From: an uncultured Ruminococcus sp.
Lineage (GTDB): Bacteria; Bacillota; Clostridia; Oscillospirales; Ruminococcaceae
NCBI GenBank assembly: GCA_902796865.1
Contig: CADBQZ010000047.1
Location: 1-10,545 of the forward strand
Direction of reading: 5' to 3'
Length of the DNA stretch: 10,545 nt
Both the position numbers and the translations under genes were made by a program. Of the stretch, positions 1-10,545 are shown in pieces (the first letter of the stretch is position 1; each line of letters begins with the position of its first letter). Below the pieces are notes generated by a model. It was not told where the DNA came from. It made no database searches and saw only the letters and a program-made list of their open reading frames with translations.

Positions 1-1
1 T

Positions 2-505
2 CCGAATACTGCCGATATAAGCCTTAAATTCAGTGAGAAATCATATCTTTATACTAATATTGACAGCTTTGACATACACCCGAACTATATAGGACATTTT
101 CTCATTGCCGAGGAAATAATCGAAACGCTGGACATTACCGGAGATATGACTGCGCTCAAAGAAGCAGCAAACAGCATTCCATACGGGACATTCTCGCAGT
201 TTCCTGACTATTTAAAACTTGAAATTGATGAAATATCCAACGGTCAGCTCCGAAGAGGCGGCCTTGAACAGGTTATCGAAAGGGCAAATGCCGCAGCCAA
301 AGAAAATAATACTGAGAGTACAGAAAGTGCTGAAAATACCGAAACTACCGAAATAGCTTCCGAAGCCAAAACGACAGAAACGACTAAAAAAAAAAAAAAA
401 AGCAAAACAAAGGCTGTTATTTCAAAAGTATTTTTAGTTCTGGGCGCAATGCTTATATTTGCCGCATCAGTACTCAGATTTGTAAGAAAGAGGAAAAACA
501 AATGA
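2..505 (+). CDS. SGNH/GDSL-family hydrolase, C-terminal part with membrane anchor (5' partial)
   Basis: The frame is open from the left edge to a TGA at 503-505, so the start lies outside the window; the ATG at 146 is internal. The visible 167 residues begin in the last conserved block of the SGNH hydrolase fold. The sequence SFDIHPNYIGH, encoded at about 68-100, supplies the Asp and His of the Ser-Asp-His triad; the Gly-Asp-Ser block would lie upstream. A Thr/Glu-rich linker follows (about 300-385), then a run of five lysines encoded by 16 consecutive A, then one hydrophobic helix (about 416-480) and a basic tail RFVRKRKNK. This suggests an extracytoplasmic esterase or deacylase domain tethered by a C-terminal membrane segment. 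The stop overlaps the next gene's ATG (ATGA), implying translational coupling to the glycosyltransferase. The substrate is unknown; an acyl group on a surface glycan is an inference from the neighbour. The family call rests on one block and the layout. Confidence 0.72.
   Translation, partial: PNTADISLKFSEKSYLYTNIDSFDIHPNYIGHFLIAEEIIETLDITGDMTALKEAANSIPYGTFSQFPDYLKLEIDEISNGQLRRGGLEQVIERANAAAKENNTESTESAENTETTEIASEAKTTETTKKKKKSKTKAVISKVFLVLGAMLIFAASVLRFVRKRKNK
386..401 (+). repeat. A16 homopolymer inside a coding region
   Basis: Sixteen consecutive A encode five lysines between the linker and the membrane helix of the SGNH protein. Tracts of this length are prone to replication and transcriptional slippage. 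Losing one A reaches a TAG at 435-437 and yields an unanchored protein. Gaining one A stays open without a stop up to and into the glycosyltransferase frame at 502. Confidence 0.95.
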
Positions 506-1473
506 TATTACATCTTGTGATCCCCTGCTACAACGAACAGGAAGTACTTGAAACTACCGCTGATGCCCTACAGAAAAAATTTGAAAAACTTATATCAGAC
601 AAAAAAATATCCGATAAAAGCCGTATAGTTTTCGTAGATGACGGTTCAAAAGACGATACATGGAGCATAATAGAAAAGCTCCACGAAAAAGACCCTGTTT
701 TCAGCGGTATCAAGCTGTCACGAAACAGAGGGCATCAGAATGCGCTCCTTGCAGGGCTTATGACCGTAAAGGAAAGCTGCGATGCCGCAATATCGCTTGA
801 TGCCGATCTACAGGATAATATTGATGCCATAGACGAAATGATAGATAAATATAAAGAAGGCTGTGATATCGTTTACGGTGTGCGGAGTGCAAGAAAAACA
901 GATACCTTTTTCAAAAGGTTCACAGCCGAGAGCTTTTATAAAATACTTTCAAAAATGGGCGTAGAAGTAACCTATAACCATGCCGACTACCGTCTTATGA
1001 GCAAAAGAGCGCTTGAAAAACTAAGCGAATTCAAAGAAGTCAATCTATTTTTGAGGGGTATTGTCCCTATGATAGGCTTCCGCTCAGACAAAGTGTATTA
1101 CGAGCGTCAGAAGCGCATGGCAGGAGAATCAAAATATCCTCTCAAAAAAATGCTCGCATTTGCGTTTGAGGGAGTTACTTCCCTTTCAATAAAGCCTATA
1201 AGATTCATAACATTTTTAGGTATCGGGATATTTACAGTAAGTATAATAATGCTCATATATTTCCTTATAAGGCATTTTACCGGCGGTACTATACACGGCT
1301 GGACATCGCTTGCTGTATCCGTTTGGGCCATAGGCGGACTTCAGCTCCTCTCTATCGGTGTCATAGGCGAATATATCGGAAAGATATATCTTGAAACGAA
1401 GCATCGGCCTAAATATATAATAGAGGAATACCTAAGCGATAATGATAATGACAATGCCGATCATAATAAATAA
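502..1473 (+). CDS. Family 2 glycosyltransferase, GtrB/DPM1-like (polyprenyl-phosphate type)
   Basis: 323 residues. The N-terminal GT-A domain shows the family 2 opening VIPCYNEQE (residues 6-14), the DDGSKDDTW motif (46-54), the SRNRGHQNA segment (73-81), the metal- and nucleotide-binding DADLQD (100-105), and GESKYP (208-213), typical of the GtrB/dolichol-phosphate-mannose synthase branch. Two membrane helices follow (about 236-258 and 267-293), then the usual LETKHRPKYI tail. Enzymes of this type move a sugar from a nucleotide donor onto undecaprenyl phosphate at the cytoplasmic face, supplying lipid-linked sugar for cell-wall or surface glycan decoration; the sugar cannot be read from sequence. 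The length is normal for the family. The ATG overlaps the preceding stop by 4 bp and has an AGAGGA site 7 bases upstream. The Asp/Asn-rich C-terminus (DNDNDNAD) is unremarkable. It converges on feoB with 5 bp between the stop codons. Confidence 0.9.
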   Translation: MILHLVIPCYNEQEVLETTADALQKKFEKLISDKKISDKSRIVFVDDGSKDDTWSIIEKLHEKDPVFSGIKLSRNRGHQNALLAGLMTVKESCDAAISLDADLQDNIDAIDEMIDKYKEGCDIVYGVRSARKTDTFFKRFTAESFYKILSKMGVEVTYNHADYRLMSKRALEKLSEFKEVNLFLRGIVPMIGFRSDKVYYERQKRMAGESKYPLKKMLAFAFEGVTSLSIKPIRFITFLGIGIFTVSIIMLIYFLIRHFTGGTIHGWTSLAVSVWAIGGLQLLSIGVIGEYIGKIYLETKHRPKYIIEEYLSDNDNDNADHNK

Positions 1474-1478
1474 TTATT

Positions 1479-3557
1479 TCAGATCATGACTGAGACTGCA
1501 TTTATAATACTGCAAAGCGTTATGCCGACTGCTGTTGGCAATGCGATAGCTGCAAGCATACATTTTACGCTTGCAGTTTCTTTTTTTATTGTAAGGCAGG
1601 CTGTGGCGCAAGGGAAATGGAAAAGTGTGAATATTGCCGTACAAACAGCTGTTACTGCTGTCCAGCCGCTTTCTTTAAGTATACTCAGCATCTCTGCATC
1701 GCTCACTTCATTTAATGTACCTGTCGATAAATAACACATAACTATTATTGGCATGACTATCTCATTTGCCGGTGCCCCCAGAATAAACCCTAAAAGTATT
1801 GCTCCGTCAAGCCCGATAACGCTTCCTACAGGCTCTAAAATACCCGATAAAAAGCTTAGGATATTTGTATCCCCGATATTGATATTCGCAAGAAGCCATA
1901 TTATAATCCCTGCCGGCGCTGCCGCTGCACAGGCTCTTGCAAGAACAAATACCGTTCTGTCGAATACCGACCGCACTATGACCCTGCCTATCTGGGGGAC
2001 ACGATAAGGCGGAAGCTCTAGTATAAACTCCGACTGCTCTCCTTTAAGCACTGTCTTTGAAAGCAAAAAAGAAATACCAAGTGTCACAAACACAGCAAAA
2101 AGTATCAAACATAGCATTATAGCAGCGGAAACTGCGCTGTTTACATTATTTTTTGAAATAATACTGAAAAAAACTGTTATAAGAAAGATAAGAGTCGGGA
2201 ATCTTCCGTTGCAAGGCATAAAATTATTTGTAAGTATCGCTGTGAGCCGCTCACGCTTCGATCCGATTATACGGCATCCGGTAACGCCTGCTGCATTACA
2301 CCCAAGCCCCATAGCCATTGTGAGCGGCTGTTTTCCGCAGCCGCCGAATCTTGAAAATATCCCGTCGAGCATAAAAGCAGCTCTCGGTAAAAAGCCTATA
2401 TCCTCTAAAAGTGTAAACAATGGAAAGAATATAGCCATAGGCGGCAGCATGACCGACACTACCCATGCAAGCACACGGTATATACCATTTACCGCAAGAT
2501 CTCTAAGACTATCTGCACAATTTAAATATTTAAGCAGGTCATCAAGCCTTTTTCCTATATAAAAAAGCCCTTTTGACAAAAGCCTTGACGGATAATCAGA
2601 GCCTGCTGCCGTAAGCCAGAAGATCACCGCAAGTACCCCCAGAAGTATCGGTATGCCGAATAACCTGCTTGTCAATATCCTGTCTATTTTAAGGTCACGG
2701 TCGTTAATTTTTCCAAAACTTACACATTCAGAGCATATTTCATGACATTTTTCCATTATGCCCGCCGCAAGCTGTTCAGACACGCTTTCGGGATCCAGTC
2801 CGTATTCTTTCAGTATAACCGATATCTTATCACATATTTCGGCGATATTATCATAAGGCAATATACGTTTTGTTATATCGCTGTCCGCTTCCATAAGCCT
2901 TAAAGCCGCCCACCTTGTATTTATACCGTCCGGAATATACGGCTTTATTATAAGGCTTACTTCCTCTGCTGCTTTTTCAATATTTTCTTTATATCTTAAA
3001 AAAATACTATTATTATCATTTTTACATGAAAGAGCCAAAAGCTCGTCACACAGCCTGTCAAGTCCTTTTTTCTGTTTTGCACACATACCAATAACCGGAA
3101 CGCCCAAACAGTCAGACAATTTATCTGTATCTATCAAAATATTCTTTCGCTTTGCTTCGTCCATAAGATTTACACATACTATAACTCTTTTCCCGGTCTC
3201 CAGTATCTGAAGCACAAGCCCCAGATTTCTTTCAAGACTTGCTCCGCCGCAGACTACTACCACCGCATCGCTTTTTTCAAAGCATATCATATTTCTTGCA
3301 GCTTTTTCGTCTTCCGAATCTGCTGCTAAAGAATATGTCCCCGGAATATCAGCTATATTAAATCTTTTTCCGGAATATTCAAATTGTCCCTCAGCACTTG
3401 AAACGGTCTTTCCTGCCCAGTTGCCGGTATGCTGATGCATTCCTGTAAGAGCATTGAAAACTGTCGATTTTCCAACATTCGGGTTTCCGGCGAGTATAAG
3501 CGATACTTCTTCAATTTTATTTACTTTTTTATCTTTCTTACAACAAGCTATTCTCAT
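1479..3557 (-). CDS. feoB: Ferrous iron transport protein B (FeoB), GTP-gated Fe(II) importer
   Basis: 692 residues from the chosen ATG. The N-terminal G domain shows the P-loop GNPNVGKS (24-31), the switch region TGNWAGKTV (44-52), DIPG (70-73), NLMD (130-133) and the G5 segment CAKQKKG (159-165). A helical insertion domain follows. From about residue 296 the membrane part carries the FeoB core motifs GLGCNAAGVTGCR (417-429), NNFMPCNGRFPT (444-455) and GAPANEIVMPI (594-604). It imports ferrous iron across the cytoplasmic membrane, which suits an anaerobe. It is somewhat shorter than the E. coli protein (about 770), mainly at the C-terminus. The ATG at 3557 is preferred to the in-frame GTG at 3566 because AAGGTGA (3569-3563) sits 5 bases before the ATG, while the GTG lies inside that site. 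No feoA is adjacent, so FeoA must be encoded elsewhere or be absent. A short N-terminal CCKKDKK stretch precedes the G domain. Confidence 0.96.
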   Translation of the reverse strand: MRIACCKKDKKVNKIEEVSLILAGNPNVGKSTVFNALTGMHQHTGNWAGKTVSSAEGQFEYSGKRFNIADIPGTYSLAADSEDEKAARNMICFEKSDAVVVVCGGASLERNLGLVLQILETGKRVIVCVNLMDEAKRKNILIDTDKLSDCLGVPVIGMCAKQKKGLDRLCDELLALSCKNDNNSIFLRYKENIEKAAEEVSLIIKPYIPDGINTRWAALRLMEADSDITKRILPYDNIAEICDKISVILKEYGLDPESVSEQLAAGIMEKCHEICSECVSFGKINDRDLKIDRILTSRLFGIPILLGVLAVIFWLTAAGSDYPSRLLSKGLFYIGKRLDDLLKYLNCADSLRDLAVNGIYRVLAWVVSVMLPPMAIFFPLFTLLEDIGFLPRAAFMLDGIFSRFGGCGKQPLTMAMGLGCNAAGVTGCRIIGSKRERLTAILTNNFMPCNGRFPTLIFLITVFFSIISKNNVNSAVSAAIMLCLILFAVFVTLGISFLLSKTVLKGEQSEFILELPPYRVPQIGRVIVRSVFDRTVFVLARACAAAAPAGIIIWLLANINIGDTNILSFLSGILEPVGSVIGLDGAILLGFILGAPANEIVMPIIVMCYLSTGTLNEVSDAEMLSILKESGWTAVTAVCTAIFTLFHFPCATACLTIKKETASVKCMLAAIALPTAVGITLCSIINAVSVMI
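1549..1590 (+). terminator. Intrinsic terminator of the SGNH-glycosyltransferase transcript, inside feoB
   Basis: An 8-bp perfect stem CTGCAAGC (1550-1557) / GCTTGCAG (1569-1576), extendable by a G-T pair, has an 11-nt loop and is followed by TTTCTTTTTTTATT on the plus strand. It lies about 76 bp past the glycosyltransferase stop, within the antisense of feoB codons near its C-terminus. There is no room for a terminator between the two stop codons. Confidence 0.6.
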
Positions 3558-3606
3558 AACTATCACCTTATTCCGTATTTTATGATATTTTAAAATATTT
3601 ATTTTT

Positions 3607-3635
3607 TATAAAAGCATATATGGTATGCCCGTCAA
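3607..3635 (-). promoter_or_regulatory. Probable feoB promoter
   Basis: On the minus strand a -35 TTGACG (3635-3630) lies 17 bases from a -10-like TTTATA (3612-3607), about 50 bases upstream of the feoB start codon. The -35 is good and the -10 only fair; TATAAA two bases further on is an alternative -10. Two inverted repeats overlap or fill this promoter and are listed separately. Confidence 0.5.
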
Positions 3636-3653
3636 TTACGAACGTAACTTGAC
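3614..3653. promoter_or_regulatory. Two inverted repeats at the feoB promoter (candidate operators)
   Basis: GCATA-N5-TATGC (3614-3628) sits between the -35 and -10 of the feoB promoter. An imperfect palindrome (3631-3653) reads GTCAA-TTACG-AA-CGTAA-C-TTGAC and covers the -35. Its two outer arms each form a TTGAC -35 core, one per strand. Neither resembles the classical Fur or DtxR/IdeR boxes. Placement suggests repressor binding, possibly iron- or metal-responsive, but that is inference. Confidence 0.4.
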
Positions 3654-3710
3654 ATTAAATACATCAAAAAACAATAATATCCGCTATAATAAATTTATGC
3701 TTTAAAATAT

Positions 3711-3740
3711 AAAAAAATTACCGGCACAAAAGTGCCGGTA
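3711..3740 (-). terminator. Intrinsic terminator of the DUF378 gene
   Basis: A perfect 9-bp stem TACCGGCAC / GTGCCGGTA (3719-3727 and 3732-3740) with a 4-nt loop is followed on the minus strand by ATTTTTTT. It lies about 67 bp past the DUF378 stop and upstream of the feoB promoter, separating the two transcripts. Confidence 0.88.
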
Positions 3741-3806
3741 TCAAGGAAGTCTGTAAAGCTGCGGCAGAAGTAATACATACTCCCTTGAGTTTAAAAGCAT
3801 CATGCT

Positions 3807-4022
3807 TTAAGAATCCGATGCTTCTATCAAACGTTCATGTGAACGGAAAAGCAGTGTTATACACCAAAGCGCTGAAACAGCGACTAAGATATATACTGCT
3901 CTGCTGAGTGTCGCATCAGAACCTCCGAACAGCCAGGATACAAAGTCGAACTGGAAAATACCTACAAGTCCCCAGTTAAGACCGCCGATTATCAGCAGAA
4001 TAAGTGCTATTCTATCCCACAT
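3807..4022 (-). CDS. DUF378 family small membrane protein
   Basis: 71 residues, beginning MWDRIALILLIIGGLNWGLVG. The GGLNWGLVG motif (13-21), FGG (32-34) and a second hydrophobic segment from about residue 43 to 58 are characteristic of the two-helix DUF378 membrane proteins. Their biochemical role is unknown, so none is assigned. The ATG at 4022 is chosen because GAGGTG (4035-4030) sits 7 bases upstream and because DUF378 proteins begin right before the first helix. The same frame is open further upstream to an ATG at 4115, but that 31-residue basic extension has no family counterpart and runs through a palindrome. The gene is transcribed alone, ending at the terminator 3711-3740. A 9-bp inverted repeat lies just before its ribosome binding site. 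Confidence 0.85.
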   Translation of the reverse strand: MWDRIALILLIIGGLNWGLVGIFQFDFVSWLFGGSDATLSRAVYILVAVSALWCITLLFRSHERLIEASDS

Positions 4023-4042
4023 TTTTTTACACCTCGATTCTC

Positions 4043-4063
4043 TGAACATTATCGTAATGTTCA
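4043..4063. promoter_or_regulatory. Perfect 9-bp inverted repeat before the DUF378 ribosome binding site
   Basis: TGAACATTA-TCG-TAATGTTCA, ending 7 bases upstream of the GAGGTG site. It may be a DNA operator or, if transcribed, a 5' UTR hairpin. There is no T-tract after it in the minus direction, so it is not a terminator. No convincing -35/-10 pair was found for this gene. Confidence 0.5.
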
Positions 4064-4206
4064 TATGACTATTATTTTCTCTGTGTTGTATTTTATTCCG
4101 TTTTTCTTCTGACACTTTTTTCTTTTTCTGACAAAAATAAATTTGAGTTTTTATTTACCATTCACTCTGATTTCATTTATTTATCACATTGATAGTGCAT
4201 AATATA

Positions 4207-4316
4207 CTTGTCGGATGAAACCGACAAGCTGAAAAGTTTTTATAATTTCATCTCCTCTGAAATTATGTCACTCTCTTTAAGAGCTGCATGGCTTTGCCAT
4301 GCAGCTCTCTTTTTTT
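4207..4316 (+). ncRNA. Candidate small non-coding RNA of three hairpins
   Basis: Three consecutive hairpins lie on the plus strand with no open reading frame that fits: CTTGTCGG/CCGACAAG (4207-4214 and 4221-4228, loop ATGAAA), ATAATTTCA/TGAAATTAT (4242-4250 and 4258-4266, loop TCTCCTC), and a strong terminator hairpin with a long T-tract (4280-4316). The first hairpin begins a few bases after TGCATAATATA, a possible extended -10, but no good -35 is visible, so the 5' end is uncertain. It is divergent from DUF378 and convergent with the cellulase, so the terminator belongs to no neighbouring protein gene. The exposed pyrimidine loop could pair with GA-rich ribosome binding sites; this is inference. 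The family is not recognised. Confidence 0.5.
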
Positions 4317-4322
4317 ATTTTT
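4280..4322 (+). terminator. Strong intrinsic terminator of the candidate small RNA
   Basis: A 13-bp perfect stem (4280-4292 and 4296-4308; arm GAGCTGCATGGC) with a TTT loop is followed by CTTTTTTTATTTTTT on the plus strand. Confidence 0.9.
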
Positions 4323-4362
4323 TAAAAAAGATCGGTCTGAAGCAAAAAAGCATCAGACCGAT
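4323..4362 (-). terminator. Intrinsic terminator of the cellulase gene
   Basis: A 10-bp perfect stem ATCGGTCTGA / TCAGACCGAT (4331-4340 and 4353-4362) is followed by CTTTTTT on the minus strand, 22 bp past the cellulase stop. It stands tail to tail with the small-RNA terminator. Confidence 0.9.
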
Positions 4363-4383
4363 AAATTCATATCATATTAAATT

Positions 4384-6240
4384 TTACTCTGAATATACTT
4401 TAAAGGTCACATCTTTGCCTTTGAGGAATTCATTCAAAAGCACAAGATCCGCTGTAGTGATAGTGCCGTCTCCGTTCGTATCCATTGGGCTTGCATAGAG
4501 CGCATCTATAAAATCGTCATTTAAAAGAGCATTTTTAAGTGCGATCGAATCGAAAACGTTTACTTTCTTATCCACTACTATATCGCCGGGGATAAAATCA
4601 ACATTTGGTCTTTCTGTCGGCTTTTGGGTAGGCTTTTCTGTCGGATCATCATTATCTGTCGGAACAGTTGCAGGCTCTTTAGGCTGAGTAGAACCGTCCG
4701 AGTCAAGATTGCTTCCTTCCGATGAAGCGTATGTTTTATAATAATCAGAAACAGATATACCATTTGCGCCGAGAGCCTTCTGGTGATCAAGACCTATGTA
4801 CTTTCCGGTCGTTGATGTCTGCCACAGGGACGGTTCAAAAAGATTGTATTTGTCCATATCCCATGTGCTGAAATCATATCCGAGAAGTCCGCCTGTATCG
4901 CCCGAATTCGGGTTCAGGCACCAGAACGTATGGTTGATATGATTGTCTATCATGTAATCACGAAGAAGCTCCATCCACTTCTGGTTGTCGCCGTTATCCA
5001 TAAATCCGCCCCATTCACCGATAAGAAGCGGCGCTATGTCTTTATCGTTGATGTATGCCCATGTATTATACCAATAATCATCAAGCAGAGTCTGGGTCGT
5101 GAAAGTCTTTTTGAACCATGTCTGCTCGTATACAGAAGGACCGTAATCGTGTGGCGAATAAACTATCTGACTGTTTAAAGTATCGCTTCCGAAGTCTACA
5201 GGATAATCCTTAACACCTCTTAGGTTTCCGCCCCATCATGCGCCGTACCACGGCGAAACATCAGCAGGTGCTTCCCATATATCAGCCGTATCATAGGTAT
5301 AGCCCTTTTCGGTCTTAGGATACTGTTCAACACCCTCGATAAGGATAAGAGCATTCGGATTCACACTAAGTATAGATTTACCGCACTTTTCAGCAGCATA
5401 CTTCCAGTTGTTTGCATCTTCCGAATTGTCCCACTTAGCGATAGTATCAGGGCAGGTCGTGCCGTCATATCCACGTTTTCCGTGCGGCTCGTTTTTAAGG
5501 TCGTATGCTAAGATCGTATCATCGTTTGCATATCTCTTTGCAAGCCATGTTACAGAATCTATCCACATCTTTTCGGTAACTTCAGCGCCGGCACCGTCTT
5601 CCATTTTTGCCATGCCTTCGCTTTTATCGTTGTTGCCGTTATAATACCAAAGCTCATAGCTATGACCTGAATTGTGCGCCGTAGGGCTGTGAACGTCGAT
5701 AAGCGCCTTGATACCATGTTCCTTCAGCTTTTTCATTATAGCATCGAATATCTCAAGGCTTGTCTTTAAAGTTTTACCGTCCTCGGTAACAAAGTCCCTG
5801 TTCTTGTCGCCGTATGTACCAGCCTTCGTGATAGAGCCGTCCTCACCGACTACATCCTTCGGCGGACTATAAGTAGCTGTAACGCTCTTAACAGGATTAG
5901 GTGTTCCATTCATCCACGAAACAAGAAGCTCGGTTGAAATAGGGAATCTGATAATGTTGATGCCCTTGTCAGCAACACCTGTCAGAAAATCGTCACAGTC
6001 AGCGGCATAAAGACCGTGCGGAACATTTTCAGAGCAGTTAAGTCCGAACCAGTTTGCACCGGTGAGCCATACCTGATTTCCCTGCGAGTCGTAAAGTCTG
6101 CTTCCGACCGCATGAAGCCAGTCGTCATTGTTTGAATCAACAGCCTCGGTAACGGTGATATTGCCAAATGGAAGTATCACACCGGCCGCCGCAACAGTAA
6201 GTGCTGCTGCCGCAGCAATAAGCTTGTTTTTAATTTTCAT
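4384..6240 (-). pseudogene. Secreted GH5 endoglucanase with dockerin, interrupted by one in-frame TGA
   Basis: The frame spans 618 residues if the TGA at 5238-5236 (codon 335) is read through. A signal peptide (about 1-33) precedes a GH5 domain resembling Acidothermus E1 (probably subfamily GH5_1): GANWFGLN (61-68), DVHSP with His184, the acid/base in NEP (Glu251), and the nucleophile in IGEWGG (Glu409). A Pro/Thr linker (about 513-548) leads to a type I dockerin (about 552-613). Its second calcium loop, [12 protein letters not shown], is canonical; the first, [12 protein letters not shown], has Val in place of the usual Asn. The dockerin implies binding to a cohesin scaffold outside the cell and hydrolysis of beta-1,4-glucan. 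The TGA replaces the first Trp of the family's WWGGN motif, and frame and homology continue unbroken. Without readthrough the 334-residue product lacks nucleophile and dockerin. The ATG has GGGAGG upstream and a perfect promoter. No degradation beyond the single stop is seen. Confidence 0.88.
5236..5238 (-). other. In-frame TGA stop at a conserved tryptophan position of the cellulase
   Basis: Flanking codons read W-Y-G-A-TGA-W-G-G-N-L. A single change from TGG would restore WWGGNL. TGA is the normal stop of four other genes in the window (503, 1481, 6334 and 6939), which argues against reassignment to Trp. Confidence 0.95.
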
Positions 6241-6284
6241 TTATATCCTCCCTCAATAAATAAAATAATTTGATCCCTACATTC

Positions 6285-6313
6285 ATTATATAACATTATC
6301 AAAAATTTGTCAA
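6285..6313 (-). promoter_or_regulatory. Consensus sigma-A promoter of the cellulase gene
   Basis: A perfect TTGACA (6313-6308), a 17-base spacer and a perfect TATAAT (6290-6285). Transcription would start near 6278, giving a leader of about 38 nt that contains GGGAGG 7 bases before the ATG. The promoter begins about 18 bp past the stop of the upstream gene, with no terminator between, so readthrough from the epimerase transcript is also possible. Confidence 0.85.
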
Positions 6314-6331
6314 CATAAAGAAATGAATTTG

Positions 6332-6940
6332 TCAGGATATTTTTCTTTTCAAATAACATTCATCTGCATAAAATGTCATATTTATCCCCGTATCCCTGAC
6401 AATTGTTCCCTTAGGAGAAGCAAGCATTTTGATAGTTACGTAAACATCTCCGACCGCACCAGCAACGTTGCCTATCTGTACAAGATATGGAACATATCCC
6501 CAGCCGTCCGGCACTATAAGCTGTAATACAGTTAAAATAATACCAAAAACGCAAAGCGGCGCTAAAGCTATAATAGTATACGAACGCTTGTTAAAATATA
6601 TATCACTACCTGCATAGGCATAAATTCCTGTGAATCCGTAATAAGCCTTTTGACCGCTCATGATCTTTATGAAAATGCCGTGCGTTATCTCGTGTGCATA
6701 TATATATATTCCATAGCAGATAAGCATTGCAATAAGTTTTATAAAAAACTCAAAAGAACCGTTATCCAGGAACGAAAAAACATCAACCCCCATAAATATC
6801 GGTATCACCACCATGGCGGATGCGACCACAAGTGCGGCAATATTTACGATAAGAGCTGTCTTTTTATCCTCCTGCAATTTAAGGTGAAACAGTTCCCTGT
6901 AGCCGCTTGGAAGCTCATTATAATTTCCATTCTTTATCAT
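6332..6940 (-). CDS. DUF3267 family putative zincin membrane metalloprotease
   Basis: 202 residues. A zinc-protease HEITH motif (83-87) directly follows a hydrophobic segment (about 66-82); the other membrane segments are about 29-50, 121-143 and 146-170. The later motif NVAGAVGDVY (158-167) and the ending VRDTGINMTFY (181-191) match the DUF3267 putative zincin peptidases. Asp165 in the GD pair is a candidate third metal ligand, by analogy with membrane-embedded proteases. It is probably an integral membrane protease of unknown substrate; activity is inferred from the motif only. The ATG overlaps the epimerase stop by 4 bp (ATGA), and no good ribosome binding site precedes it, so translation probably depends on coupling. 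It ends in TGA just before the cellulase promoter. The pairing with a sugar epimerase is functionally unexplained. Confidence 0.85.
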   Translation of the reverse strand: MIKNGNYNELPSGYRELFHLKLQEDKKTALIVNIAALVVASAMVVIPIFMGVDVFSFLDNGSFEFFIKLIAMLICYGIYIYAHEITHGIFIKIMSGQKAYYGFTGIYAYAGSDIYFNKRSYTIIALAPLCVFGIILTVLQLIVPDGWGYVPYLVQIGNVAGAVGDVYVTIKMLASPKGTIVRDTGINMTFYADECYLKRKIS

Positions 6941-7944
6941 AATAGTGTAAAGAATCTCTGGTTTGCTTCAAATGTATGCTGCGGCTTTATTTCCTGATAT
7001 CCTGTCACAGAATCAGGGAGTTCAAGATTCGGAGCATCTATCATTGCCGTCATAGGCTCAGGACAGAAATATCCCTTCTCTCCCTTGTCATTCCAGATTA
7101 TAAAAAACCCATATTCATCAGAAACTTCATAGGCGATCTTTTTACCTGTTCCGAGATCCTCTGCAACAACGCCGTGAAATTCCTGTCCGTTAAGGTTCAT
7201 AGTACCTATTACATACATCTCATTGTCAACGACCTGTAAAACAGGCTGTCTGCCGGCACGGGTATATTCAAGATCGGTACCATCGAGCATACACGGCTCG
7301 CCGTCCGGAAGGCATCTGTCATTAAGCTTGCATCTTTTGAGCGCCGGAACGAAAAGGCGTATATCTTCTTCTTTACCGCCTTCTGCGAACGGAGAATTGA
7401 TAGTTGTATGAGTTGCAAAAGATATAGGCATCATCTTGTCTGAAAGGTTTGTAAATTTAACATGATGTTCAAGTCCCATTTCAGAAAGCGTAAATGTATA
7501 TTCCGCTAAAAATTTTATCGGGAAATACTTGAAAAATTCGTCTTCCTCATCGTATCTGTACTTTGTTTTTACAACGGCACAATTCTCATCGGCATAATGT
7601 TCAACGAGAGTATGCGCTCTCTTTTGAAGAAATCCATGAATATGATTGTTAAAGGGTGCTTTTTCATTAACAGGAAGCTGGTATACAGCATCAGATGTTT
7701 TAAGTACGCCGTCTGCGAATCTGTTCGGCAGATAAAGCGAAGGAAGTCCCCAAACCTCCGGAGATTTTTTTATGACATTGGCATCATTTTCGGAAGAAAA
7801 TCTGAAAAATTCTATTCCGTTCTTATCGTCGTGAAGTCTTATCACATTTGAGCCTAACTCATAAGCTATAAGTGCTGTGTATCCTCCGGCTTTAAGTTCG
7901 ACAACGGGTGTACCGCCGAATTCTTTTATTTCTGAACTATTCAT
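6937..7944 (-). CDS. Aldose 1-epimerase family protein
   Basis: 335 residues from the chosen start. The galactose mutarotase fold is recognised by NNHIHGF (99-105) with catalytic-type His103, SFATHTT (175-181) with His179, and FCPEPMTAMIDAPN (293-306) with Glu296 in the position of the catalytic base. The family interconverts alpha and beta anomers of free sugars or sugar derivatives in the cytoplasm. This branch, with PEPMT rather than the GalM-type ending, has no firm substrate. It may handle sugars released from polysaccharide, given the cellulase nearby (inference). The start at 7944 is preferred because AAAGGA lies 8 bases upstream and the family begins there; the in-frame ATG at 7995 would add a 17-residue leader that overlaps the predicted promoter. 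It is first in a pair with the DUF3267 protease, which it overlaps by 4 bp. Confidence 0.9.
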   Translation of the reverse strand: MNSSEIKEFGGTPVVELKAGGYTALIAYELGSNVIRLHDDKNGIEFFRFSSENDANVIKKSPEVWGLPSLYLPNRFADGVLKTSDAVYQLPVNEKAPFNNHIHGFLQKRAHTLVEHYADENCAVVKTKYRYDEEDEFFKYFPIKFLAEYTFTLSEMGLEHHVKFTNLSDKMMPISFATHTTINSPFAEGGKEEDIRLFVPALKRCKLNDRCLPDGEPCMLDGTDLEYTRAGRQPVLQVVDNEMYVIGTMNLNGQEFHGVVAEDLGTGKKIAYEVSDEYGFFIIWNDKGEKGYFCPEPMTAMIDAPNLELPDSVTGYQEIKPQHTFEANQRFFTLL

Positions 7945-7999
7945 TTTTATTATCCTTTCAAATATTTTTACTAAACAGCCTATTACTGTTTTCACTCTT

Positions 8000-8028
8000 A
8001 TTCTATCATATTTTTACTGTTTTGTCTA
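8000..8028 (-). promoter_or_regulatory. Probable promoter of the epimerase-zincin pair
   Basis: TAGACA (8028-8023), a 17-base spacer, and TAGAAT (8005-8000) preceded by TGA, which gives an extended -10. Each hexamer has one mismatch from consensus. Predicted start near 7993, leader about 50 nt. Confidence 0.65.
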
Positions 8029-8048
8029 TAATTATTATGTTATAATGC

Positions 8049-8084
8049 AAAAAAACAAGGCACACTTTTCAGCATACCTTGTTT
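8049..8084 (-). terminator. Intrinsic terminator of the DUF6033 gene
   Basis: A 14-pair stem including three G-U wobbles (8084-8071 and 8066-8053 on the minus strand) is capped by a GAAA tetraloop. Its last T residues merge into a seven-T run. It lies just after the TAA of the DUF6033 gene. Confidence 0.82.
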
Positions 8085-8091
8085 AAAAGTT

Positions 8092-8865
8092 TTAAGCCTT
8101 CATTTCAAATTTATTATCATTTTCAGACATTTTTGAAGCTATCTGTGTCCAGTCGATATTATTTATCTTGTCCCACAGTTCATCAATAGAAGGAGCCTTG
8201 ACCGAAGTTTTCAAAACATTTCTGTTTTTATGTCCTTTCATGCCGCCTTTTTCAGCCTTTTCGGACCTTTTCTTTTCGTCAAGCTCGCCGGCTTCCTTTT
8301 CCGCAGCCTCTTTTTCCGCCTTTTTCTTTTCCTCCGAGCGTTTTTCTCTCGCTTCATTAAGCTGTTCGGTCTGCTTTGCGGTCGATTTTTCAAGCTCAGC
8401 GAACATAGTCACCGTTCCGTTCTCATCGAAAGTAACGCCCACATTCTTTAATGTAACGCCGTCGCCGAGATCCTTATCCGGTTCATTGCCGCCGAATTCC
8501 TCGAATATCTTTCCGGACATAGCCGCAGCCGTTTCCATATTATTTATCTGCTTTTGTGCGAAATCGTCATCATTAGCCATTTTTTCAAGCTCTTCCGACG
8601 AGAACACTACCGAGACCTCCTTATCGCTTTGTGCCAGAAGTCCCTTAACATTATCTTCCTTATCGGCAACTATAAAATTATAATCCCCGTATTTTTTACG
8701 AAGTCCGTCCAGAAGATCCTGTGCCTTTGCAGAAAGCTTATCCTCGCTAGAGCCGACCTTTTTTGCGGCATCTGCTTTAGCGGTTTTCTTTCCTTTTACG
8801 TCTTTAACGCCGCCAAACAGCTTGTTGCCGAAGCCGTTTGAACCACTGATTCCATTCACTGCCAT
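8092..8865 (-). CDS. DUF6033 family protein
   Basis: 257 residues with no signal peptide or membrane segment. Residues about 43-120 contain LSAKAQDLLDGLRKKYGDYNF (written here only as a pointer) followed by FSSEELEKMA, the pattern of DUF6033 proteins common in Clostridia. Residues about 157-210 form a highly charged Glu/Lys/Ala-rich segment likely to be a coiled coil, and the C-terminal 35 residues contain two Trp in short helices (WDKINNIDW). The function is unknown. AAGGAGG (8879-8873) lies 7 bases before the ATG. The gene is monocistronic: its own promoter lies at 8959-8987 and a terminator follows at 8049-8084. The long plus-strand open frame opposite it (8168-8683) is a mirror of its Glu/Lys-rich codons, not a gene. 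The family assignment is from remembered sequence pattern and is fairly but not fully certain. Confidence 0.78.
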   Translation of the reverse strand: MAVNGISGSNGFGNKLFGGVKDVKGKKTAKADAAKKVGSSEDKLSAKAQDLLDGLRKKYGDYNFIVADKEDNVKGLLAQSDKEVSVVFSSEELEKMANDDDFAQKQINNMETAAAMSGKIFEEFGGNEPDKDLGDGVTLKNVGVTFDENGTVTMFAELEKSTAKQTEQLNEAREKRSEEKKKAEKEAAEKEAGELDEKKRSEKAEKGGMKGHKNRNVLKTSVKAPSIDELWDKINNIDWTQIASKMSENDNKFEMKA

Positions 8866-8891
8866 ACTAAAACCTCCTTGCTTTATAGGCT

Positions 8892-8913
8892 GTGTGAGGT
8901 TTCACGCTCACAC
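8892..8913. promoter_or_regulatory. Leader hairpin before DUF6033
   Basis: A perfect 7-bp inverted repeat GTGTGAG (8892-8898) / CTCACAC (8907-8913) with an 8-nt spacer lies in the predicted 87-nt leader, 13 bases upstream of the AAGGAGG site. No T-tract follows it, so it is not a terminator. It may affect translation or mRNA stability. Confidence 0.45.
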
Positions 8914-8939
8914 CATATCTCATAAAGACAATATTTCAC

Positions 8940-8987
8940 GATAATATTATCCATCATTAATATACCATAAAACGATCATAATGTCAA
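8940..8987 (-). promoter_or_regulatory. DUF6033 promoter with a palindrome at the start point
   Basis: TTGACA (8987-8982), a 17-base spacer and TATATT (8964-8959), predicting a start near 8952. The perfect 12-bp palindrome GATAATATTATC (8951-8940) covers about +1 to +12, a typical place for an operator. The binding protein is unknown. Confidence 0.7.
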
Positions 8988-9100
8988 TATACACCGACAT
9001 ATTTTGGAGTTTTTCAGTAAAAACCGCAAATCAATTTGTAAATAGTCACAATTAAGAAAAATCGCCGCCGGTTTTTGTATATTATTTTCATAAAATTGTA

Positions 9101-9129
9101 TTGCTATTTGTTTTTATATATGGTATAAT
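9101..9129 (+). promoter_or_regulatory. Promoter of the structured RNA
   Basis: TTGCTA (9101-9106), a 17-base spacer, and a perfect TATAAT (9124-9129) preceded by TGG, an extended -10. The predicted start is 9135-9137, exactly at the 5' arm of the closing stem described next. Confidence 0.8.
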
Positions 9130-9134
9130 ATAGG

Positions 9135-9319
9135 TGCGACACAACTAAATATTTTTAAGAGTATACATCTTTAATGGGCTTACTGCGCTTTTACATAGGT
9201 AAAAGTGTACGCTCTGCTTTCGTGGTATCCTCATTATTTGGTATACTCTTATGGAAAGTTGTGTCGCAGCAATCGGAGTTGTGCATTTTTCGGTGCGTAG
9301 CTTCGGCTGCGCACTTTTT
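9135..9319 (+). ncRNA. Structured non-coding RNA, about 185 nt, 6S-like in outline
   Basis: The RNA is bounded by a strong promoter and a strong terminator and has no plausible reading frame. A 12-bp perfect closing stem joins TGCGACACAACT (9135-9146) to AGTTGTGTCGCA (9257-9268). After an internal loop of 9 and 5 nt comes a second 11-bp perfect stem, TAAGAGTATAC (9156-9166) / GTATACTCTTA (9241-9251). Above it are a large central region with a possible AATGGG/CCTCATT pairing (9173-9178 and 9229-9235) and an apical hairpin CTTTTAC-ATAG-GTAAAAG (9188-9205). A long rod with paired ends, a central open region and a length near 185 nt resembles 6S RNA, but I cannot match 6S sequence signatures, and the terminator lies beyond the closing stem. 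Other unassigned clostridial RNAs are equally possible. A second AGTTGTG at 9277-9283 could compete for the 5' arm. Confidence 0.7.
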
Positions 9320-9324
9320 GTTTT
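9293..9324 (+). terminator. Intrinsic terminator of the structured RNA
   Basis: A 9-pair stem GTGCGTAGC / GCTGCGCAC (9293-9301 and 9306-9314; one G-U) with an ultrastable UUCG tetraloop, followed by TTTTTGTTTT. Confidence 0.92.
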
Positions 9325-9438
9325 CAGCATTATGCTGAACCCGTTTCGGGCATAATTGACTTAATTACCTTCATAAACTCACAATGGTCTCTTGCTCAAA
9401 AAAACAAGTCAATAATAGCATAATGCAGCAAAAACAAA
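9316..9438. repeat. Imperfect inverted repeats in the leader of the surface protein
   Basis: The segment ending AGCATTATGCT (9316-9336) and the segment starting AGCATAATGC (9417-9438) are inverted copies across about 20 bp, with a few mismatches or one gap. Inside the left copy lies a 17-bp palindrome, TTCAGCATTATGCTGAA (9323-9339), followed by CCCG-TTT-CGGG (9340-9350). The right copy ends 10 bases before the AAAGGAGG site. It could be a leader structure or a short mobile remnant. TTGACT at 9356-9361 is a possible -35, but no convincing -10 follows. Confidence 0.5.
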
Positions 9439-9464
9439 TTATTTACCAAAGGAGGAAATTTAAA

Positions 9465-10545
9465 ATGAAAGTGAAAAAATTTTTATCAGCAGTCACGGCG
9501 GCAGTTTTGGCGGTCATGACATTCGGCGGTGTTATGCCGAAAATAATACCGGAAACAAACGAGATAATCGAAGTAAGCGCAGAACCGGCAGTTCCTAAAT
9601 CTGACGGAAGTGTGACACGTTTTGAAAACAAAGTCACACTTTCAAGTGACACAGTAGTTACCGGCGATCTATTGCTTACCGAATGGGAAACAGTTAAAAA
9701 CGGACAAACTGTTAAACATGAATTTGAATCTTTAGACCTAAACGGATATACATTAACTGTATACGGTAATCTTATCCAAAAATTAGGAACAATATATATC
9801 AACAACGGAACATTGAATGTTTTGGGTGATTACAAAATACAAAATGCTGTAACAAATAATGTCGGCGAAATAGAATATAAAAATTGCGAAGCTAGCCTGG
9901 TCTCTCAAAATAAACATGACAAAATAAATATTGGTGGAAACTTTGAAACACATAACGTCGAATACTGGTGCAGTTTTATTTACACGGATTTGATTATTGG
10001 CGGAGATGTATATCTTGATGGAAGAATTTTTTTTAGTTCTGAAAACGGACAGAAAACAACACTCACTAAATCTGGAACAATAAATATCTACTCAGACTAT
10101 GGAACTAACGAAAGAGATGAAGAAAAAAACCTAACCTTTAACGAATTGGAGATTCCAAATGCTGATAACGTAGTTTGGGAAAAAAGCATAAGCGTTAGAA
10201 AATTACTAACCGATATAAATATTACACCTAAAAATTTAGAAAATATTTACATTGATTTGAACCAGAAAAAATTATCAATAAACGGCGATGTTAAAATGGA
10301 ATACGGAAACATTGATATTAATGGCGGAATTTTGACAATCAGCGGAAATCTGATTCAAAAAGGAGATGAGTACCATACTACCACAACAATTAACATAAAC
10401 AACGGAACATTAAATGTTTTGGGTGATTACAAAATACAAAATGCTATAACAAATAATGTCGGTGAAATAGAATATAAAAATTGCGAAGCTAGCCTGGTCT
10501 CTCAAAATAAACATGACAAAATAAATATTGGTGGAAACTTTGAAA
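9465..10545 (+). CDS. Secreted repeat-containing surface protein, beta-helix-like (3' partial)
   Basis: The frame is open from ATG 9465 through the right edge (360 codons, no stop). AAAGGAGG (9448-9455) lies 9 bases upstream. A signal peptide begins MKVKKFLSAVTAAVLAVM, with likely cleavage after VSA near residue 39. The rest has short strand-forming repeats of the type LNGYTLTVYGNLIQ, INNGTLNVLGDYKIQ and INGGILTISGNLIQ, which suggest a right-handed beta-helix or similar stacked-strand fold, as in adhesins and other extracellular proteins. No catalytic motif or anchor is visible, and the C-terminus lies outside the window. Residues 113-161 recur at 312-360 with one amino-acid change, far closer than their surroundings, pointing to recent duplication or gene conversion. 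The gene is Asn/Lys-rich and AT-rich compared with the cellulase. The function is unknown; attachment or surface display is inference. Confidence 0.85.
   Translation, partial: MKVKKFLSAVTAAVLAVMTFGGVMPKIIPETNEIIEVSAEPAVPKSDGSVTRFENKVTLSSDTVVTGDLLLTEWETVKNGQTVKHEFESLDLNGYTLTVYGNLIQKLGTIYINNGTLNVLGDYKIQNAVTNNVGEIEYKNCEASLVSQNKHDKINIGGNFETHNVEYWCSFIYTDLIIGGDVYLDGRIFFSSENGQKTTLTKSGTINIYSDYGTNERDEEKNLTFNELEIPNADNVVWEKSISVRKLLTDINITPKNLENIYIDLNQKKLSINGDVKMEYGNIDINGGILTISGNLIQKGDEYHTTTTININNGTLNVLGDYKIQNAITNNVGEIEYKNCEASLVSQNKHDKINIGGNFE
9801..9948 (+). repeat. Direct repeat, copy 1, in the surface protein gene
   Basis: 148 bp matching 10398-10545 at 145 positions, with differences at 9815, 9849 and 9866. 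The offset of 597 bp is exactly 199 codons, so the frame is kept. Similarity falls sharply before 9801. Confidence 0.95.
10398..10545 (+). repeat. Direct repeat, copy 2, cut by the window edge
   Basis: Second copy of the repeat starting at 9801. The last 82 bases are identical and run to the window edge, so the true repeat is probably longer. Confidence 0.95.

Follow-up and report, generated by a model that had tools for sequence, protein, structure and literature searches.

A large family of leader RNAs in gut Clostridia, absent from Rfam, with the probable design of a riboswitch-like transcription attenuator

Introduction

The contig CADBQZ010000047.1 of an uncultured Ruminococcus sp. (assembly GCA_902796865.1) was analysed over positions 1 to 10,545 of its forward strand; this whole stretch of 10,545 nucleotides is the window. 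Between positions 9101 and 9324 the window holds a compact element that has the look of a structured RNA with a promoter and a terminator of its own. What is this RNA, and does it act by itself or on the gene that follows it? An earlier note, made from the letters alone, had taken it for a stand-alone non-coding RNA gene with an outline suggestive of 6S RNA, while allowing that it may be an unclassified RNA. Judging from the comparison of many related sequences, we consider it highly probable that the element is a cis-acting transcription attenuator of riboswitch-like design, belonging to a family outside Rfam.

Materials and methods

A blastn search of 41 genomes yielded the window and four relatives of the same build (L003–L006), of which one belongs to a different family within the order; in all five, a version of GGAGTYRYG(N)TTTTTCGGTGC precedes the terminator. 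As a pattern, GGAGTYRYG(N)TTTTTCGGTGC matched at least 119 stretches in genome_contigs, 13 of which were judged by eye to be chance; the others belong to Clostridia, Oscillospiraceae, Ruminococcaceae and other bacteria, almost all of them represented by metagenome-assembled genomes from gut or rumen. There were at least 130 pattern matches, and removal of the 13 chance matches and of five duplicate loci (by eye) left 112. Seven of these were too close to the end of a contig, and a further 10 rows (nine loci) were incomplete or had no clear closing stem, leaving 95, of which 72 were aligned as the seed; the other 23, long-insert or near-duplicate copies, were left out.

Covariance model R1 was built from the 72 seed copies, the window copy among them. 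Its structure consists of P1, P3 and the terminator; the helices formed by strand R1 with strand Y (R1:Y), by strand X with repeat R2 (X:R2) and by the antiterminator were not included. A set of 105 model-found copies was taken from 100 loci (L241–L340) scoring at least 93 bits at first listing. Only seven of these 105 match the seed pattern and five are also seed copies, so the first search did not dictate the letters of the 3′ strands, with the caveat that model R1 itself was trained on pattern-matching copies. Seed and model-found copies together make 172 distinct copies.

Results

The element and the gene after it comprise the following parts.

9101–9129, plus strand: promoter, TTGCTA, 17 nt, TATAAT, with an extended −10 (−10 at 9124–9129, TG at 9121–9122)
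9135–9319, plus strand: leader RNA from the predicted start to the end of the U tract (model R1 match at 9132–9328, 130.2 bits)
9135–9146, plus strand: 5′ strand of closing stem P1, partner 9257–9268 (fold and covariation)
9156–9166, plus strand: 5′ strand of an extra rod stem (I2) of the window copy, partner 9241–9251
9184–9194, plus strand: strand X, pairing with 9199–9209 as apical hairpin P3; rival partner R2 in relatives
9201–9216, plus strand: strand R1, predicted partner X (P3) or Y (switch helix, 16 pairs, −16.2 kcal/mol)
9220–9233 (approximate), plus strand: repeat R2, rival partner of X, placed by eye from the alignment; X:R2 was counted in relatives
9241–9251, plus strand: 3′ strand of the extra rod stem (I2)
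9257–9268, plus strand: 3′ strand of P1, partner 9135–9146 (fold)
9274–9290, plus strand: strand Y, predicted to pair with strand R1 (OFF) or with 9292–9306 (antiterminator, ON)
9292–9301, plus strand: 5′ arm of the terminator, also 3′ arm of the putative antiterminator
9306–9315, plus strand: 3′ arm of the terminator (UUCG loop 9302–9305, U tract 9315–9319)
9450–9455, plus strand: AGGAGG, ribosome-binding site (RBS) of the downstream gene, from the sequence
9465–10545, plus strand: downstream gene, ATG at 9465, signal-like N terminus; reading frame still open where the contig ends

Much of what the earlier note had described is borne out. The extended −10 promoter, the 12-bp closing stem, an apical hairpin in the computed fold and an independent UUCG terminator (stem 9292–9315 followed by a T run) are all present, and transcription probably starts at P1, given the position of the promoter. 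The computed folding energy of positions 9135–9270, −51.8 kcal/mol, lies far below that of 200 dinucleotide shuffles (mean −26.2, sd 3.2; z = −8.0), and not one shuffle reaches it. Among relatives, the closing stem shows changes on both sides in 11 of 13 pairs in an alignment fitted to the stem, and in 9 of 13 in the seed alignment. The proposed 11-bp stem is also there, but in the alignment, read by eye, it seems to be an extension peculiar to the window copy rather than a general feature of the family. In the case of the duplicated AGTTGTG (at 9257 and 9277), alternative pairing does matter, as had been supposed, though not as a helix of CACAACT and the second AGTTGTG. The latter falls within strand Y, and it is pairings of Y, either with 9201–9216 or with the terminator (its 5′ arm and loop), that relatives support.

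With 6S RNA the element shares a rod with a closing stem and internal loops, a length of about 185 nt and a promoter of its own. Unlike 6S RNA, the window leader has no RF00013 match and carries an attenuator-like 3′ part before a gene, and the 6S RNA of this genome is found on another contig, where RF00013 matches with 72 bits (G000:C94). We therefore rejected 6S identity. No Rfam 15 family reached threshold in the window, and neither RF00013 nor any other family matched at 9050–9400 even at E ≤ 10, in agreement with the alternative suggestion of an unclassified RNA. Likewise, in 20 loci carrying relatives, no leader had an Rfam match at E ≤ 1; the matches at this level lay off the leaders and comprised tRNAs, a SAM riboswitch and weak ones. 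The RNA family is absent from Rfam 15. In the portions of the open literature that were searchable, including PMC8040213, PMC11109978, PMC8632094, PMC2864571 and PMC7266159, we found no description of the motif. An earlier listing, unnamed in the supplement of a large ncRNA screen or under another name, is possible.

The leader in the window belongs to a large RNA family with members in many gut Clostridia. Model R1 found two copies in this genome, the window copy (130 bits) and C8:14085–14295 (62 bits). This second, diverged copy (L231 4086–4296, minus strand, the same as G000:C8:14085–14295) is followed by a lipoprotein-like gene, and a SAM riboswitch lies further along the same locus, at 3194–3299. 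Within the genus, 5 of 11 genomes gave a model match (E ≤ 0.01, one being weak), and the numbers at higher ranks were at least 35 of 297 in the family (E ≤ 0.001), at least 140 of 394 in the order, at least 97 of 391 in the class and at least 1 of 398 in a draw from the phylum, that one being the window's own genome (all three at E ≤ 1e-6). The tallies from family to phylum are lower bounds because 6–9 candidates per genome were scored; six genomes that were searched more fully had 10, 9, 10, 5, 5 and 4 copies. Tandem copies exist as well: L313 holds three on the minus strand (472–640, 686–854 and 901–1064), about 45 nt apart, and its upstream copies are kept despite lacking a gene of their own. 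A phage or plasmid element was also considered and rejected, as viral_contigs held no match to the seed pattern and plasmids no blastn match to the window leader. The leader does occur in two fecal records titled "Bacteriophage sp.", both unverified (160.5 and 128.1 bits with model R1). By their open reading frames, inspected by eye, one looks like a piece of a bacterial chromosome and the other has an integrase-like frame; in L342 (MT837627.1), a scaffold of unverified "phage" origin that has an integrase-like frame, the leader stands before a gene for a zinc-ribbon protein.

Does the RNA belong to the gene that follows it? An extended −10 stands at the start of the element in 159 of 171 distinct copies, as opposed to 4 of 170 at a control position some 70 nt upstream. 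At the other end, an RBS with a start codon occurs within 40 nt past the element in 105 of 171 testable distinct copies, as against 4 of 169 on the far side and 203 of 4000 random places, and it is on these counts that we regard the element as a leader. The model-found set alone gives 62 of 105 against 2 of 104. When a wider RBS list was applied to 177 copies, five of them counted twice, a start codon with an RBS was found within 40 nt in 114, at 41–150 nt in 30 (hence within 150 nt in 144), at 151–300 nt in 3 and nowhere in this range in 22; of the rest, five precede a tandem copy and three are too near a contig end. With the same list, 168, 498 and 843 of 3000 random places had such a start within 40, 150 and 300 nt.

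These counts also bear on the possibility that the element is a stand-alone small RNA gene, 6S-like or acting in trans, that sits before genes by chance. It does have its own promoter and terminator, a short terminated form could act in trans, and both the upstream tandem members without a gene of their own (5 of 177) and the 22 of 177 copies without a gene within 300 nt would be at home in such a picture. Against it, a separate promoter would hardly fit between the element and a start codon so close by, as found in 105 of 171 copies; 6S RNA is found elsewhere in the genome; and the terminator takes part in rival pairings that are conserved (see below). Taken together, we consider a stand-alone gene very unlikely for the family, and the corresponding claim of the earlier note is unlikely to apply to most relatives. 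The window copy is a special case. Here the ATG of the gene lies 146 nt past the U tract, farther than usual, and the gap contains a weak promoter-like site (9356–9385, 9/12). Because of this gap past the terminator, control of the window gene is less certain, and a stand-alone transcript is possible at this copy. The protein encoded downstream has no Pfam or NCBIfam match; it has six homologues with 25–44% identity. Elsewhere in the window, a strong promoter-like site on the minus strand (8959–8987, 11/12, TG before the −10) points toward the gene at 8092–8865. Also on the minus strand, at 4384–6240, a single gene, which from its translation we take to be cellulase-like with a dockerin-like end, appears as two open reading frames (5236–6240 and 4384–5001), its frame seemingly interrupted.

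Leader genes are enriched in lipoproteins and in secreted or membrane proteins. By a crude test of the N terminus, 68 of 112 leader genes are lipoprotein-, signal- or membrane-like compared with 94 of 430 other genes (odds ratio 5.5), the background coming from pattern loci only and the leader genes from both seed and model-found loci. Family searches covered 138 of 142 selected downstream proteins, and BspA-type leucine-rich repeats were present in 22 of the 138; further matches were to AMP-binding enzymes (6), DUF6364 (6), zinc ribbons (5) and HTH proteins (4). In two genomes, G177 (L223, L224, L227, L229) and G084 (L174, L206), several leaders stand before near-identical small ribbon-helix-helix-like genes (DUF6364 or RelB-like), and there the leader and the gene possibly form a spreading cassette.

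The rival pairings were counted in both sets, against shuffles, which ignore relatedness, and against slid controls, which keep it. In the model-found copies, R1:Y is paired in 93.8% of cells (32–68% when slid), with 8 of 15 pairs changed on both sides and 84 double-changed cells against 22.5 in shuffles (0/500). The antiterminator, formed by Y with the 5′ arm and loop of the terminator, is paired in 90.0% (25–55% when slid) and has 41 double-changed cells against 19.0 (0/500), while its six double-changed pairs are not above shuffles (215/500). X:R2 behaves similarly, being paired in 84.1% (26–64% when slid), with 134 double-changed cells against 52.7 (0/500) and eight double-changed pairs that are not above shuffles (149/500). 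The extended X:R1 helix is paired in 86.1% and has double changes in 11 of 14 pairs (0/500), 10 of its pairs being already in the model and the outermost one being formed in 23 of 105 copies. For the terminator the figures are 99.2% and 10 of 10 pairs, in an alignment fitted to it. The seed set gives 97.2% for R1:Y, 96.3% for the antiterminator, 82.0% for X:R2 and 87.7% for the extended X:R1. Double-changed cells exceed shuffles there for all four helices (0/500 each), and double-changed pairs are not clearly above them (R1:Y, three pairs, 66/500; antiterminator 403/500; X:R2 228/500; extended X:R1 134/500). Insertions and deletions in strand R1 and in Y are weakly matched (Spearman 0.28; 172 of 198 unique sequences, 26 being unparsed). 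Sequence comparison establishes the promoter and the place before genes and, as predicted helices, the rival pairings.

Folding energies point in the same direction. In the model-found set, R1:Y has a mean of −14.6 kcal/mol, compared with −11.6 when Y is swapped between sequences and −4.7 when Y is shuffled. The state with the terminator is favoured over the antiterminator by a median of 2.6 kcal/mol in the seed and 3.3 in the model-found copies, and the antiterminator is the lower of the two in 15 of 72 and 22 of 105 copies, respectively. In the window, the best fold of 9269–9316 is the antiterminator, at −20.2 kcal/mol. Since the energies of the two states are close, the balance between them could be tipped. 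Could the element then be no switch at all but a fixed terminator whose leakiness keeps expression at a low level, with no signal involved? It would be in keeping with such a terminator that no trigger was found among the systems tested (see below). A plain terminator would, however, have no need of several mutually exclusive pairings, and these are kept together, which makes this explanation improbable.

For the attenuator, the pairings suggest the following course of events. Transcription would begin at P1, and the emerging X and strand R1 would form the apical hairpin. Three strands would then each have a choice: X between strand R1 and repeat R2, strand R1 between X and the later strand Y, and Y between strand R1 and the 5′ arm and loop of the terminator. 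In the ON state, X would hold R1, leaving Y free to form the antiterminator, and the polymerase would read into the gene. In the OFF state, X would pair with R2 and R1 would take Y, so that no antiterminator could form, the terminator would fold and transcription would stop. We infer that transcription actually stops or reads on in this manner, and that some signal would keep strand R1 in the apical hairpin or occupy Y, so that the gene is read. As for polarity, our guess, made with some preference, is that the switch rests in OFF, since R1:Y (median −14.9 kcal/mol) is stronger than P3 (median −8.5), the pseudoknot cost of R1:Y being outside these figures.

Beyond the strands that pair, conservation is confined to a few letters, namely AUA and CAA, each after P1, GG in the loop of the apical hairpin and UU ahead of R2, and for this reason we see no clear ligand pocket. 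Inspection of the leaders by eye revealed no conserved start codon of the kind a leader peptide would have. Models of c-di-GMP riboswitches do not match the leader, the one weak c-di-GMP-I match, in L003, being away from it. We compared 20 leader-rich genomes, having at least 6–7 copies each, with 20 in which no R1 match was found among the candidates scored. GGDEF is absent from 9 of the former and present in 15 of the latter; ANTAR is absent from 11 of the former (present in 9) and likewise present in 15 of the latter. A c-di-GMP trigger and an ANTAR trigger are thus both not supported, and neither system explains the family.

It is tempting to speculate that the leader represents a new riboswitch class of gut Clostridia, one that senses a metabolite or second messenger and switches surface and secreted proteins through strand swaps; we put this forward tentatively, together with the idea that nearly every conserved strand might have two partners. 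There is a substantial possibility, too, that the same attenuator responds to a protein or another macromolecule, such as an RNA-binding antitermination or termination factor, instead of a small molecule, the trigger being the only difference. The sparse conservation outside the pairing strands, limited to AUA, GG, UU and CAA, is unlike a typical aptamer and would suit a protein input, whereas of the two candidate systems tested neither tracks the RNA, ANTAR being missing in 11 of 20 leader-rich genomes.

Discussion

A riboswitch-like attenuator invites comparison with systems that are already known. The c-di-GMP riboswitches (RF01051 and relatives) occur in many copies per genome before diverse genes, some of them for surface proteins. 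The leader resembles them in being multi-copy before diverse genes that include those for surface proteins; it differs in having no Rfam match and in that GGDEF is missing from 9 of 20 leader-rich genomes. The two-hairpin leaders controlled by ANTAR proteins act by antitermination at several targets per genome and have an architecture different from that of the leader. Antitermination at several targets per genome would be what the two share; in 11 of 20 leader-rich genomes the ANTAR domain is missing.

The closest likeness seems to be with terminator/antiterminator riboswitches. Members of the family lie before genes and in their direction (the window copy at 146 nt), their conserved structure is supported by covariation, and they appear to have mutually exclusive structures including a terminator; a co-directional leader, a covarying structure and an exclusive antiterminator and terminator are shared with such riboswitches as characterized in the accessible part of PMC7266159. 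Unlike them, the leader carries its conserved letters mostly in the switching strands, with no separate aptamer, and has no match to an Rfam riboswitch. According to the same part of PMC7266159, a typical riboswitch has a conserved aptamer and an expression platform that as a rule is not conserved, and in the HMP-PP (thiS motif) riboswitch the aptamer overlaps the expression platform. A conserved platform is common to the HMP-PP riboswitch, as described there, and the leader. The leader differs from it in being much longer, in its rod, apical hairpin and strand swaps, in the genes it precedes and in the lack of an Rfam match. On this comparison, the leader would work like a known kind of element, a terminator-type leader switch, with conservation placed in the switching strands.

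The leader precedes genes for lipoproteins, leucine-rich-repeat proteins and zinc-ribbon proteins, and it is present in at least 140 of 394 genomes of the order. If it is a switch, it would be an example of conservation that resides mostly in the switching strands rather than in a sensor domain apart from them, and the search for its signal would become a defined in vitro experiment. One signal would then set what many gut and rumen Clostridia display on their outside.
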